This document shows positions 1 through 9,350 of a stretch of 10,834 bases of DNA, one piece after another. The stretch comes from Chromatiales bacterium (GTDB lineage Bacteria > Pseudomonadota > Gammaproteobacteria > Thiohalospirales > Thiohalospiraceae), in contig JALSRO010000317.1 of the NCBI GenBank assembly GCA_026984715.1, positions 1 to 10,834 of the forward strand. Direction: 5' to 3'. The notes under the pieces are model-generated. The model did not search any database. It was not told the origin of the DNA and was given only the letters and a program-made list of their open reading frames with translations. The translations under genes and the position numbers were made by a program. The first letter of the stretch is position 1. Every line of letters starts with the position of its first letter.

Positions 1-520
1 GAGCCCTCCTGAACAGCTCGATATCTGCCGGGCGGGTGATACGATGCGGGTCAACCATTGGCTTCTCCCCGACTGCGCAGGGATTGTGTTTCATGGCACA
101 AGGGTTGTGCTTCATGGCGCAGGGGTTGGTCATGCCGGACGAACGCTGTGTCCCGGCAGTGGTCTCGGTCGAACAGGCCGAAACTCCCGACAACAACAGG
201 GCGACGGCAAGAACTATTAACCCGGCAACAATATATTTCGTATTCAGCCGTGGCGTGCCGGTTCGCAGCAAGGCGGCCCATCGCCGTTGTAGCCACTCTA
301 CAGCAAGATGGGGTAACGCAGCCTGCGGGCCGGCACGCCGCGGCCTGTCATTGAATATCATAGGGTTAGGGGCTTCAGGCAGGCACCGGCCCTGCGTTCC
401 AGTGCTTGGCAAGGGAACGACCCTTGCCTGCGCCCTGCGCCTTGTTCCGGCGCCTGCCTGGAGCCCTGAATGCGACATATATTGTTGCCGGGTTAATAAA
501 TTGCTGGATCTCGTTTCCAT
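1..520 (-). CDS. NPCA-repeat lipoprotein, 5' part, with an in-frame 94-codon element insertion
   Basis: This reading frame is open from an ATG at 520-518 to the left window edge (173 codons), so the C-terminus is missing. The start is chosen for the purine-rich ribosome binding site at 524-532. Codons 1-8 read METRSSNL; codons 9-102 come from the palindromic element at 217-496; then follow VLAVALLLSGVSAC (lipobox V-S-A-C, Cys116, codon 175-173), a Ser/Thr-rich stretch and a Cys repeat: two NPCAMKH units and a third NPCAV (residues 132-150, bases 127-71). After that comes a segment containing VDPHRITRPAD. Without the element the lipobox Cys would be residue 22, an ideal lipoprotein signal. From memory, similar Asn-Pro-Cys repeats precede haem-binding domains in some sulfur-oxidiser proteins, but no CxxCH is visible before the edge, so the function is left open. 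As it stands, the signal is buried behind a basic extension; an internal TTG at 271 would give a new 32-residue signal with a basic start, though without a clear ribosome binding site. Confidence 0.72.
   Translation of the reverse strand, partial: METRSSNLLTRQQYMSHSGLQAGAGTRRRAQARVVPLPSTGTQGRCLPEAPNPMIFNDRPRRAGPQAALPHLAVEWLQRRWAALLRTGTPRLNTKYIVAGLIVLAVALLLSGVSACSTETTAGTQRSSGMTNPCAMKHNPCAMKHNPCAVGEKPMVDPHRITRPADIELFRRA
217..247 (+). repeat. Left terminal inverted repeat of the element
   Basis: It matches the reverse complement of 466-496 at 29 of 31 positions; the mismatches are at 237 and 241. The outer 20 bp, plus the flanking TA, match perfectly. The TA just outside (215-216) is one copy of the presumed target duplication. 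Confidence 0.85.
250..341. repeat. Internal hairpin A of the element
   Basis: This long imperfect stem-loop is built from nested pairings: GGCGTGCCGG (252-261) with CCGGCACGCC (330-339), CGCAG (264-268) with CTGCG (323-327), CCCATC (277-282) with GATGGG (307-312), and TGTAG (288-292) with CTACA (298-302) around the 5-base loop 293-297. Confidence 0.7.
370..466. repeat. Internal hairpin B of the element
   Basis: The base of the stem pairs 370-389 with 447-466 (18 of 20 positions). The tip is a perfect 8-bp stem, GGCAAGGG (408-415) with CCCTTGCC (421-428), closing a 5-base loop. The middle part pairs poorly. Confidence 0.65.
466..496 (-). repeat. Right terminal inverted repeat of the element
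   Basis: This is the partner of 217-247 in inverted orientation, followed by TA at 497-498. In the minus-strand gene it supplies codons LTRQQYMSHS, directly after the original first eight codons. Confidence 0.85.
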
Positions 521-841: not shown

Positions 842-3800
842 TCAGCCGGCACCTCCAGCCCCGGTTCCGGGAAAGCCACCGGAATTGCCGCCGCCGTTTC
901 CATTGCCCCCTGACGAATCCGGCGTACCTGGAGTACCATCGCCAAGGCCGGGGCCTTCCGGCGCAAAGGTAAAGGCGGGTCCGGTAAGGGTCTCTCCTCC
1001 AGTGACAACCTCTTCGTGCCGTTCGAAATCGCCACCGTCGCTTCTCTGGTCCCTCACATAGCGCAATACGCCTCCCCAGGTCTCAAATCTGGCGTTGTCC
1101 TCACCATCGGGCCAGAGCACCGGCTCGGAAACACCAGGTTCTCCATCTCCATCATCATCGCGGAACAGCACTATCTGATAGTGGGCGCTGGGGTCGGCAT
1201 TCAGGTAGTCACCGATGGTTGGGGTCAACGAGTAACTGCCGGCGGTCACGCCAGCCACCTCTACCACCGTCCGCTGCCACTGATCGACAAGCAAATCCGG
1301 ATTGAAGGACTCCTTCATCAGCGCCACCTTCCAGCGAGTGTCGGAGCTGTCGGGTGCAGTGCCTTCGATGGTGAAAGTGGCGTTCATATCCAACGCCTCA
1401 CCGACGTAGAACTCGGCCCAGCCACAGCTGCCACGGCCGATCTCCCTACCGTTGTCCGTATCGATGAACAGGGCGCACACATTCACGTTGTAGGAGCCCT
1501 GCCCAACCTCCATGCGTTCTAGGAGTACCGGCAGGGTGAACGAAGTGCCAAACAGCTTCCGATCCTGCTGCCAGGTGTCGTAGATCGGCTGCCAGTCACA
1601 TCCATTGTCGTCACAACCGCGATTGAGACCGACATTGAGCGAGTACGCAATCTTGACACCATCGGGAAGCTCTACCCGTGGTTTCTCCCAACTCAGGGTT
1701 ACTTTGGCCTTGTCTTTGATTCCATCCCCGTCACTGTCCTCATTGAGGGCGAAAGTGGTGTTGCCACCGTCAGCCAGCCACTGTTCCTGCAGGGCATCCC
1801 ATTCGGCACAGGGTCCCGCCTTGCCTTCGCAGGATTTTGGCCACGCCGGCATGCCATTCGGCGCAGTGAGATGCGGACGCACATCACTCATTCCCACCAG
1901 CACCTTCCTGTTGAACTCACGGGAAGCAATCACCGCACCCGCCTGCTTGACATCTACCCTGTAGCTACCAGAGACGAAATCAGAGATGACGTCGGTCTCG
2001 GCCAGATTGACTGGGCCACCGTTACCACCCTGCTCATGTTGCGCCTTCGCCCAAGGATCGAGAACAAAACAGCTCTCGAAACCGGGCCCCCGATCACCTT
2101 CCGGACCACCATCAGGCCCATCCGCATTTTGTGGGCCCATATCCCCCCCCGGAGGCGGCATACGCAACAGCTCTTCGCTGAGCAAAGCAACCGAGGCCCT
2201 CCCACCGTTGCTGGTCGGATAGCTCAACTCCACGGTCAGGTCGCTGCCACCATCGCCCCCCTGTGCACCGTCCTGCCGGGCCAGCTGTGCCAGCTTCGAC
2301 AGATCGGAGACACAGACATTGGCGCGCAACATATCGACCTCACTGCCACCCATACCATCCGGACCGGAGATCCAGGCCTTGTCCGGCATGATATCCAGCC
2401 AGGAGATCTCTACTCCGTCCAGTGCGTCCAGGTTCTGTGGCTCAAAGAAGCCGTACAGCTGCATCAGTCCCGGCTGACCACCCTGGCCATTTGCATATGC
2501 GGGGTCGAAGTGCATGGGATCGAAGTTGACAGGATCCTGCATCTCCACCTGGACCGCACCATCTTCACCCACCTCCGTGGTGGCCAGACCATCGACATCC
2601 TTGCCCGCCTGCTTCAGTTTGTCCGCCATATAGACATCGGTAACGAAAATGGTAAAGGCAATCGCCTGTGGAACATTCAGTTCATCAGTCGATGTGATTA
2701 CCTTTCCCTTCCACTCTGTCGCAGGGAAGAGTGCCGGAATAACCGACGGAATTTCCCGGAGCGCCTTCTTCTCTTCCTTGGTCATTGTGCCGCTGGCCTT
2801 CTTCTCCATCAGGGCGTAGATATCAGAAAGCTTGCTCTGGAATGATTCCATGGCACCTGTTTTGGTGGTACCCAACGCATTCAGATCTGCTGCCAGGCGG
2901 GGATCGATCTTCAGTCCCGCCTTGATTCCCTCGAAGAGAGTGCCGATCGCCATCATCCTGTTTTCGATGAAGCGAGTGGCAAAGAAATCGCCGATGAACG
3001 CAGGAACATCTCCATCCCCCAGCATCTCCTTGAATACCCGCTCTATCAGCTTGCGCTTGCCGGCATCGCTGGAGGAGTCGATCTGCTCCAGTTCCCTGAC
3101 CTTGATCTCCGCCTTGACGGCATCCACCTCGCTGGCGACGGTTTCATCCGACAACAGATTGCCCGCAGCCGATTCCAGCTGTTCGTTGGCACCATAGTTC
3201 ACGCTCTTCTCCGACTTGAGCCGGGCCACATCGGTAATATAAGCGCCGGTGGCATCCCTGGGCGCCTCGACAACCATCGAAGGCACTTGGACCGCGCCAC
3301 TTCGAACCAGTGTAACCACCGCCTGTTTCACCGACTTGATGATGTCATCCACCACCTCCGGCGCGATATCCTTGCCCTCGGTAGCGGTCAGGATGGCATT
3401 GATGATTGTATCCACCACTACCGTCGATTCAGGCGAGACAACTCCATCTTCAACTTTCGGTGTACCTTTGGGAACCTCGATATTGACCTTCATCTCGAGT
3501 GCCTTGTTCCCTTCCAACAGGCGCAGATACTTGATCACATACTGCTTTCCATCCGCCACATCGGGGCAACTGTATTTCGGATTTCCACTCTCATCGGTCT
3601 GATCATCGAAGGAACAGTCGATACCGGTATCCTGCAGCTCACCATCCGGACCGACCACATACAGTTTCACGATTGCATTGCCGGTTGTGGCGAGAGCGTT
3701 GCGGCTGGCCGCAGACATCTGCATGGTAGTACCATCTACAACATTGGCATCAGAACCATTGAGCGCAGAGAGCGCAATAACACCAGAGATGAATGAACTT

Positions 3801-6884: not shown

Positions 6885-8707
6885 CAGCCAGCCCTCTTCT
6901 TCAACGAGATCTCTTTGCGCCTTTTGCCACTGAGGAACTTGCGCATCCTCTTTTTGTCTTTGTGCCTCGCCTTGCCCTTCAGCCTGCTCGCTTTGGCTGG
7001 CGCCCGGCCAACCTCTCCGAGAATGCCGATATTCAGTTTCCGGTTGCATACCCAGACCTTTTTCAGATGGGTGAAGATCTCTTTTGGCATCCCTTCCGGA
7101 AGATCGACCGTACTGTAGCTGTCATGGAGTTTTATATGACCGATATGCTGGCTGTCCACGCCCGCTTCGTTGGCGATGGCTCCCACAATGTTTTTTGGCT
7201 GGACGCCATGCTCCCGACCCACATCGATACGGTAGCGAACCATTCCCTTCGCAACCGCTGATGATGAGCGTGATGGTGGCCGTTCCCGATCCCGCTGCCG
7301 CCCTCTGGCTTCACCCTGCCGGGGCGGGACGCGGCGCGGCTCCCTGCTCTCCCTGCTGTTACTCTGCCGGGGGCTCGCTTTTTCCTTTACCACCAACGGC
7401 CGCTCGCGCTGCACCAGCCAGGCCAGGGCTGCGGCGATTTCACTGATCCCGGTATTGTGCTCGTTCTGGTACTGCTCGATCAGCTGCTCGAAATAGTCCA
7501 GCTCCTGGCTCTCGATGGTCTCGGTGACAAGCTCCTTGAACTGCGCCACGCGGCGATTGGCCACATCCTCCCGCGTGGGAAGTTGCATCGGTTTGATCAC
7601 CTGTCGGGTGGCCTTCTCGATCGCCCGCAACATCCGCTTCTCGCGCGGCGCAACAAACAGAATCGCCTTGCCCTGCCGCCCGGCCCGTCCGGTGCGGCCG
7701 ATGCGGTGCACATAGGCCTCGGTATCGTAGGGGATGTCGTAGTTGACCACATGGCTGACCCGTTCCACATCGATACCGCGTGCCGCCACGTCGGTGGCAA
7801 CCACGATATCCAGACTCTTTCTCTTCAGGCGATCAATGGTTTTTTCCCGCAACGCCTGGTTCATGTCACCGTTCAACGGGCCGCTGGAGTAACCACGCGC
7901 CTCCAGTTTCTCCGCCAGCTCCACGGTGGAGTTTTTGGTGCGCACAAAGATGATCATGGCGTCGAAGGTTTCCACTTCCAGAATACGGGTCAGGGCATCC
8001 AGTTTATGAGTTCCGGTCACCTGCCAGTAATACTGGGTGATGGTATCCACCGTGGTGGTTCTGGTTTTTATCTTTATCTCTACCGGATCATGCAGGTGAC
8101 GCTGGGCGATACGGCGAATAGCTGTGGGCATGGTGGCAGAGAACAGGGCAATCTGCCGCTTCTCCGGAGCCTGTTCCAGAATCCACTCTACGTCGTCGAT
8201 GAAACCCATCTTGAGCATCTCGTCCGCCTCATCCAGCACCAGCGAGATGAGATTGTCGAGCCGGAGACTCTTGCGGCGCAGATGGTCCATCACCCGGCCG
8301 GGGGTTCCCACCACCACCTGAACACCCCGTTTGAGCTGGCGCAGCTGGGTGCCCATATCCTGCCCGCCATAGATGGGCAGAATATGAAAATCCTTCAGAT
8401 GGCGGGCGTAGCCCTGAAATGCCTCGGCAACCTGAATAGCCAGCTCCCGGGTGGGCGCCAGCACCAGCACCTGGGGCTGCTTGAGGGAGACATCCAGCCG
8501 GGTCAGCAGCGGCAGGGCAAACGCCGCCGTCTTGCCGGTTCCCGTCTGGGCCTGCCCCACCAGATCCCGCCCCTCCACCAGCGGAGGAATACTCTCCGCC
8601 TGGATGGGCGACGGCGCTTCATAACCCGCCTCCTCAACTGCTTTCAGGATCGCCGGGGCAAGCCCCATCTGCTGGAAAAGGGGGCGCGGCACTCTGTTTG
8701 ATGACAT
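6884..8707 (-). CDS. deaD: DEAD-box ATP-dependent RNA helicase, DeaD/CsdA type
   Basis: The enzyme unwinds RNA duplexes with ATP; family members act in ribosome assembly and mRNA turnover, mostly in the cold. Over 607 residues the motifs come in order: Q motif (28-35), motif I AQTGTGKT (53-60), PTRELA (85-90), TPGR (135-138), DEAD (159-162), SAT (190-192), IIFVRT (252-257), ATDVAARGID (304-313) and HRIGRTGRAG (334-343). After a Ser/Arg-rich linker (441-486) comes a DbpA-like RNA-binding domain (about 487-560) and a Lys/Arg tail (573-607). This C-terminal half distinguishes it from the RhlE and RhlB types. The start at ATG 8707 has only a weak ribosome binding site. A perfect TATAAT about 75 bases upstream implies a leader, as is usual for cold-induced deaD genes. 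Cdd1 is coupled downstream. Confidence 0.95.
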   Translation of the reverse strand: MSSNRVPRPLFQQMGLAPAILKAVEEAGYEAPSPIQAESIPPLVEGRDLVGQAQTGTGKTAAFALPLLTRLDVSLKQPQVLVLAPTRELAIQVAEAFQGYARHLKDFHILPIYGGQDMGTQLRQLKRGVQVVVGTPGRVMDHLRRKSLRLDNLISLVLDEADEMLKMGFIDDVEWILEQAPEKRQIALFSATMPTAIRRIAQRHLHDPVEIKIKTRTTTVDTITQYYWQVTGTHKLDALTRILEVETFDAMIIFVRTKNSTVELAEKLEARGYSSGPLNGDMNQALREKTIDRLKRKSLDIVVATDVAARGIDVERVSHVVNYDIPYDTEAYVHRIGRTGRAGRQGKAILFVAPREKRMLRAIEKATRQVIKPMQLPTREDVANRRVAQFKELVTETIESQELDYFEQLIEQYQNEHNTGISEIAAALAWLVQRERPLVVKEKASPRQSNSRESREPRRVPPRQGEARGRQRDRERPPSRSSSAVAKGMVRYRIDVGREHGVQPKNIVGAIANEAGVDSQHIGHIKLHDSYSTVDLPEGMPKEIFTHLKKVWVCNRKLNIGILGEVGRAPAKASRLKGKARHKDKKRMRKFLSGKRRKEISLKKRAG

Positions 8708-8781
8708 GAAACAATCTCTGTGGGGGGCCTTGCGGAACAGTGCGAGTCGAAAAATGCAGATACAGGGCCGGAAAACCGACG

Positions 8782-8787
8782 ATTATA
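8782..8787 (-). promoter_or_regulatory. -10 box of the helicase promoter
   Basis: The minus strand carries a perfect TATAAT, preceded by an A/T-rich stretch. The hexamer at the ideal -35 distance is a poor match; a TTGTTT is present but only 11 bases away. Transcription from here would give a leader of roughly 65-70 bases before the start at 8707. Confidence 0.5.
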
Positions 8788-8864
8788 CCTCAACCAAAAA
8801 ACAATTGCCTGATACTGCCCTCCCTCCGGCAAGTTTCACCGCGACCGAAGAGAGTGGGGGACTG

Positions 8865-9350
8865 ATGCTGGCTTTTGAACCGCGGGAAAGCGGTATCATG
8901 CAACGCCCACCCCCCCACGATCCGCGCCAGCCGATACTCTCCCACCGCCTGCTACTGCGCATCGCTGTAGTGGGTACACTACTCCTGGCCGGCTCCTTCG
9001 GCCTGTTCAACTGGGCGCTGGCGGATGGCGCCAGTGAAGCGGAGGCCAGAACCATTGCGGTAAACGTGTTTGTGTGCAGCGAGCTGTTCTATCTGTTCAA
9101 CTGCCGCTCCCTGATCCGCTCCATGTTTTCCCTGGGGATTTTCAGCAATCGCTGGCTGATATGCGGCATCGTAACCATGACAGGGCTGCAACTTCTGTTC
9201 ACCTATTCCCCTTTCATGAACGGAATCTTCTACAGCGCCCCTACCTCCCCCTCCGGCTGGCTTCCAATCGTGGCGGTTGGTGCAGTTATCTACATCGTGG
9301 TAGGCTTCGAGAAGCGGCTGCAGAACAACGGTCTGCAACCCGGCCGGTAA
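8865..9350 (+). pseudogene. C-terminal fragment of a P-type cation-transporting ATPase
   Basis: The 161 residues match only the last membrane domain (Cation_ATPase_C type) of Ca2+/cation P-type ATPases. MLAFEPRESGIMQRPP (1-16) is the conserved stretch that normally precedes the final membrane helices. Four helices follow (about 29-52, 62-80, 95-115 and 132-147), and ELFYLFNCRS (73-82) is a family mark. The phosphorylation loop with DKTG, the ATP-binding domain and the first helices are all absent: homology stops at about 8860, and only the helicase leader lies upstream. It is therefore most likely the remnant of a deletion. The frame is nonetheless free of stops and a G-run (8856-8860) sits 4 bases before the ATG, so a stand-alone small membrane protein cannot be excluded. 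Confidence 0.8.

Follow-up and report, generated by a model that had tools for sequence, protein, structure and literature searches.

How a mobile element can lie within the coding sequence of an export signal while the gene around it remains open is the question raised by the first 520 nucleotides of the window, by which we mean the whole 10,834-nucleotide stretch analysed here (contig JALSRO010000317.1, from a Chromatiales bacterium). A first-pass annotation had proposed that an element flanked by TA duplications splits the signal peptide of a lipoprotein gene, and this is what we observe. The element is a complete 280-bp MITE at 217-496, read in frame on the minus strand as LTRQQYMSHSG...LNTKYIVAGLI, with TA target-site duplications at 215-216, on the side downstream of the gene, and at 497-498, on the upstream side, inside codon 8 (TTA). 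Its 31-bp terminal inverted repeats (217-247 on the plus strand, 466-496 on the minus strand) agree at 29/31 positions and, with the flanking TA included, form a 33-nt inverted repeat (94%). The repeat at 217-247, read outward on the minus strand, codes LNTKYIVAGL(I). The element is classed as a MITE as it is short, has terminal inverted repeats and a target-site duplication, carries no transposase, and is present in multiple copies. The window genome (G000) is a 2.14-Mb draft in 490 contigs, 86.5% complete, which contains three more copies of the 284-bp stretch, of equal length and 96-99% identity, as well as longer 331-339-bp variants and many partial ones; further TA-flanked copies thus exist in the genome, as the first-pass annotation had anticipated. 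The 20-bp MITE end, with up to 3 mismatches allowed, occurs 134 times in this genome (69+65), and a reversed-pattern control returned none (0+0). Chance is ruled out for the window element by these matches and the equal-length copies. Rfam gave no match to it at gathering scores.

The interrupted gene is read on the minus strand from an ATG at 520-518, preceded by a ribosome binding site assigned by consensus (GGGAGAAGGAAA, 521-532), and it occupies 2-520; the end of the contig truncates it, so that the window holds an incomplete gene. The insertion is stop-free, so that the ORF stays open from 520 to 2 and exits at the contig end, and excision of 282 bp joins METRSSNL (497-520) to VLAVALLLSGVSAC (173-214), with the lipobox Cys as residue 22. 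The insert-free signal peptide, METRSSNLVLAVALLLSGVSAC, has the charged start, hydrophobic core and lipobox with Cys of a lipoprotein. The remaining part of the gene was not found on other contigs of G000, and the complete extended product is present in the protein database (P0003, 293 aa), encoded on a 19.7-kb contig, which shows the gene intact to its natural end. P0003 has a CNSCH haem motif and weak matches to the cytochrome families CCP_MauG and SoxA-TsdA, and the window gene has one Pfam match just above the cut-off and one below; the haem motif marks the product as a c-type cytochrome. Uninterrupted 5' ends lacking the additional 94 codons are found in the orthologues from G004 (MEIRSAVILSVAGLLVLFGISAC) and G001 (METRNPLTLMAAGLSLLFMVSVHAAE), which are respectively 65% identical, and 54% identical over 35 residues, to the part behind the insert. 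No orthologue was detectable in the other five genus genomes, nor did we find an empty allele from the same species; the case for an empty site in the window therefore rests on the orthologues from G004 and G001. The in-frame MITE in a lipoprotein signal peptide is therefore confirmed as an observation, and each testable sequence claim in the earlier interpretation of it held.

Two other observations concern the window. In the cytochrome family (window 2-214 and P0001-P0016), the mature protein bears variable NPCAMK-type Cys repeats at one end or at both, and these are expanded in some metagenomic relatives. At 8706-9350, a stand-alone 214-aa ORF matches only the C-terminal part of cation-transporting ATPases, and looks like either a fragment or a separate membrane protein.

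The 15-bp MITE end (≤1 mismatch) is present in all eight genus genomes searched, whereas the reversed control gave one match in one genome, and a search with the element over 56 genomes matched nine at E≤0.001, namely the eight genus genomes and one distant, weak match. The exact 21-base end pattern was found in at least 104 stretches of named genomes; the 80 stretches listed come mainly from MAGs titled Sedimenticola sp., Chromatiales or Gammaproteobacteria, with single matches in unrelated records. A possible mobiliser is the intact IS630-type element at L057:955-2049 (G005:C58), which has a 341-aa DDE_3 transposase and ends beginning TATTAACCCGGCAAT that agree with those of the MITE over the outer 14 bases only, TA included. 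No autonomous partner with the exact MITE ends was present among the PF13358 matches of the eight genus genomes or in the surveyed loci, and mobilisation of the MITE in trans is therefore something that we infer. Palindromes of about 37-40 bp that comprise scarcely more than the two ends (L306:3400-3439 and G007:C127:11577-11613) may be the family's smallest form, and that at L306 adjoins a transposase-like stretch (3437-3622). A different palindromic repeat, with ends TGTCCTGTCTCCGAAGTTCGTT and an interior that weakly resembles the MITE, lies at L038:1450-1712 (G036:C5), in a genome from another family of the class.

To place the window insertion among its relatives, we surveyed the stretches around the listed end matches in the eight genus genomes, of which G006 was hardly sampled, together with loci from named genomes. 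Among the matches listed, this gave 191 non-redundant complete elements (122 + 69), some of which are degenerate or false since pairing tolerated up to 8 mismatches at one end; with that tolerance, TA is present on both sides of 106 elements, on one side of 70 and on neither side of 15. Thirty-one rows (30 distinct ORFs) contain an ORF that starts ahead of the element, runs through it and continues for at least 50 codons behind it. Eleven of the 31 are insertions in credible genes, ten of them with a Pfam match or an orthologue and one (L188) with neither, and within this 191-element sample all 11 of these in-frame, stop-free insertions sit in signal peptides. Beside the window gene, they interrupt an outer-membrane barrel protein in two species (L005 in G000 and L036 in G002), an SBP_bac_3 protein (L013), a protein with no Pfam match (L188), an NHL protein (L192), a DUF2782 protein (L194), TamA (L201), an SLT/LysM lipoprotein (L222), a secretin whose matches lie below Pfam cut-offs (L232) and BamB (L236). 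In nine cases we called the signal peptide with a simple rule rather than with SignalP; this rule, which picks out 107 of 416 long ORFs, misses L194 and L201, and those two were recognised by eye.

These insertions share a common design. All 11 have the phase xTA, in which TA forms the last two bases of a codon, and a length divisible by 3. Entry is at a Leu codon in eight, an Ile codon in one and a Ser codon in two, the TA having drifted in both of the latter, and each reading leaves the element as YIVAGLI or a variant that continues the hydrophobic core. In L192, L222 and L232, and in P0123 described below, the junction is at the n-region or ahead of it, outside the hydrophobic core.

The remaining rows yielded no further genic insertions that we could recognise. 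Fifteen lack a Pfam family and hence were not classed, while the five others with Pfam matches (L010, L121, L130, L306 and L260) do not look like coding-sequence insertions. The CBS protein at L306, a candidate counter-example, has a mis-assigned right end and its own start; the AcrB-type transporter at L260, from a Bacteroidales record, is read as a chance match to the end pattern because its Pfam match is not interrupted by any insert. At L121, L130, L010 (where the Pfam match lies below the cut-off) and L017, the elements look to be upstream of genes with their own start. Other loci weigh against the reading favoured below: L096 and L278 resemble one-ended remnants adjoining signal-peptide remainders, and at L003:1501-1784 (G000:C412) a metalloprotease-like gene (HEIGHAIGLAH) has its signal peptide interrupted by the same MITE in the orientation that is closed by stops; this gene would be either lost or restarted within the element.

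Comparison with relatives supports the reading of these loci as insertions. The L005 site is empty in the sister genome G005 (L312), where CCAAAACCGTTGTTTTTACTTTTA|GTGCTGGC is uninterrupted, with 36 identical junction bases and a single TA. The closest genus match to the barrel gene of G002 is in G007 (80%) and is without the insertion of G002, so the two insertions in barrel-gene signal peptides look independent. TamA has one match per genome in all eight genus genomes; G003, listed as 100% complete, has it only as the element-bearing copy, with the frame open, and the other seven all have an uninterrupted signal peptide as judged by eye.

When the stretch of P0003 encoded by the element was searched against 5.8 billion proteins, 11 proteins were returned from 434 candidates. 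Beside P0003 itself, six have a Pfam family, and all six join the element peptide, ending in YIVAGLI, YIVAGII or YSVAGLI, to a signal-peptide remainder: SCO1 (P0123), BamB (P0124, with 492 of 494 residues identical to L236), MlaA (P0125), a PQQ protein (P0127), a YaiO/TPR protein (P0129) and PCuAC (P0130). Four more are without a Pfam family (P0121, P0122, P0126 and P0128). The search thus added five exported proteins, for a total of 16 insertions in 15 different genes, with BamB counted once and the barrel protein twice.

The best evidence for selection is the continuity of the reading frame at these sites. Across the 382 directions in which the elements can be read, the xTA phase is open through the element in 63, xxT.A in 19 and TAx in one. 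When every empty site was scored in each direction and each phase, the signal-peptide rule detected 13 xTA insertions, one xxT.A insertion and none in TAx. Of these 13 xTA insertions in signal peptides, nine keep the frame and contain no stop, compared with 54 of the 369 remaining directions (Fisher p=2.2e-5), which is our best indication that coding continuity is selected; at least three of the 13 are doubtful (L008, L157 and L278). By comparison, the enrichment of all elements in signal peptides is modest, with 13 of 191 against 745 of 26,373 TA sites in the same loci (expected 5.4, 2.4-fold, p=0.004), or 8 of 209 directed sites against 185 of 21,515 under a stricter rule. As this enrichment is only 2.4-fold, the element overall shows no strong targeting of signal peptides, which are instead where its in-frame genic copies survive. 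Only 113 of the 3325 xTA sites in the 416 long ORFs fall in rule-predicted signal peptides, and 11 of 11 is therefore far from random, although we attach no nominal probability to a set that was partly recognised by eye. Insert lengths divisible by 3 are not clearly over-represented overall (45/122 and 36/69, with many sister copies).

We consider it probable that this TA-targeting MITE is tolerated in signal peptides because the ribosome reads through it and the additional residues are then cleaved off, leaving the mature protein unchanged. A non-autonomous element with ends related to an IS630-type transposon would insert at the TA of a Leu codon in the signal-peptide region, in the codon phase, xTA, that is most often open through the element. 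Insertion in this phase calls for a Leu, Ile or Val codon with TA as its last two bases, a requirement well matched to hydrophobic cores. Translation would enter the element as LTRQ.. and exit as ..LNTxYIVAGLI, its last residues joining the signal-peptide remainder, so that the junction would rebuild a longer hydrophobic core that begins in the element and keeps the original cleavage site; in the window, the element end coding KYIVAGLI (215-238, minus strand, TA included) is the proposed extension of the core. Initiation at the native start would yield a preprotein with 53-111 extra residues, which signal peptidase would cut away together with the signal. As everything upstream of the cleavage site would be removed, the mature protein would be unchanged and the insertion nearly neutral. 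Relatives of the element may recur in signal peptides because extra residues can there be made and then removed, while in-frame copies at other gene positions would persist in the mature protein and be lost. Whether the family is in addition adapted to signal peptides, with ends that act as a portable half signal peptide (charged residues, then YIVAGLI) and an interior kept open in the phase that fits the core, is a more tentative proposal, and one that we regard as doubtful. If true, the element would find in export signals a refuge within genes, and would itself supply new or altered signal peptides.

The most serious alternative is that translation starts inside the element, making the upstream part irrelevant. 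An in-frame TTG lies 19 codons ahead of the junction in 10 of the 13 junctions examined (it is absent from L096 and from both of L198), and initiation there would produce MLRTGTPRLNTIYIVAGLI followed by the remainder, a signal peptide of ordinary length; the gene at L003 would be expressible only through a start within the element. By eye, no clear ribosome-binding site precedes this TTG, and internal starts would make an in-frame, stop-free insertion needless, yet 9 of the 13 rule-detected insertions are of this kind. We therefore regard internal initiation as unlikely to account for the pattern. The interrupted genes could instead be non-functional or decaying, and in frame by chance, in keeping with the stops that close the signal-peptide insertion at L003 and with draft genomes in which intact copies may lie elsewhere. 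This is the less plausible of the two given a coding continuity well above baseline (9/13 against 54/369), the open frames of TamA and the barrel protein, each a single match in its genome, and a window gene that is intact to its natural end in P0003. Lastly, nearly all genomes here are fragmented drafts in which repeats break contigs, and the 19.7-kb contig encoding P0003 may derive from the same sample, but an assembly artefact joining repeats to unrelated flanks is very improbable, as the sequences on either side of the window copy, like those on either side of L005, match a single continuous orthologous gene, the empty site of L005 is exact, and the same design recurs across several assemblies.

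Read-through of the element followed by cleavage thus remains the explanation that we favour. It would make the cleaved signal peptide a position at which mobile DNA may reside within a conserved gene while the mature protein is unaltered, and it becomes testable at what distance from the protein start a signal peptide can still work. On a practical level, genes of this kind may be given a wrong start, or be overlooked, by gene callers and signal-peptide predictors.

There are precedents for MITEs lying in frame and, in a few cases, for repeat elements that form part of a signal peptide. In the literature searched, which included few subscription papers, we found no family whose recognisable in-frame genic copies all lie in signal peptides, and the portions available of papers on Haloquadratum (PMC3119063) and Porphyromonas (PMC5771137) do not describe MITEs in signal peptides. 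The RUP element of Streptococcus pneumoniae, as presented in the available part of PMC2229807, likewise targets TA and has ends resembling an IS630-type transposon (compare L057), and is intergenic or located in IS elements, whereas some copies of the present family are in frame within export signals. The 107-bp form of the Correia element of Neisseria also has TA ends and open frames often fused in genes, a likeness that we draw by description; the portion of PMC2229807 available makes no tie to signal peptides. Rickettsia palindromic elements are short repeats found in frame, and tolerated, in many unrelated protein genes, among them metabolic genes such as that for guanylate kinase, and the available parts of the accounts describe the insert as retained in the protein (PMC10969869, PMC2229807). 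By description, the MITE family resembles these elements in inserting in frame in protein genes with the frame open through the element, and it differs from what those accounts report in that all of its recognisable in-frame genic copies are in signal peptides. A further likeness is to the enterobacterial repeats YPAL/RU-2 and ERIC/RU-1 (Delihas 2007), whose peptides are fused to ORFs and in some cases add hydrophobic segments; in the part of that source available, the fusions are predicted for the beginning of one or two genes, without an empty site, whereas here there are 16 insertions in 15 genes, in one constant phase, with empty sites in orthologues.
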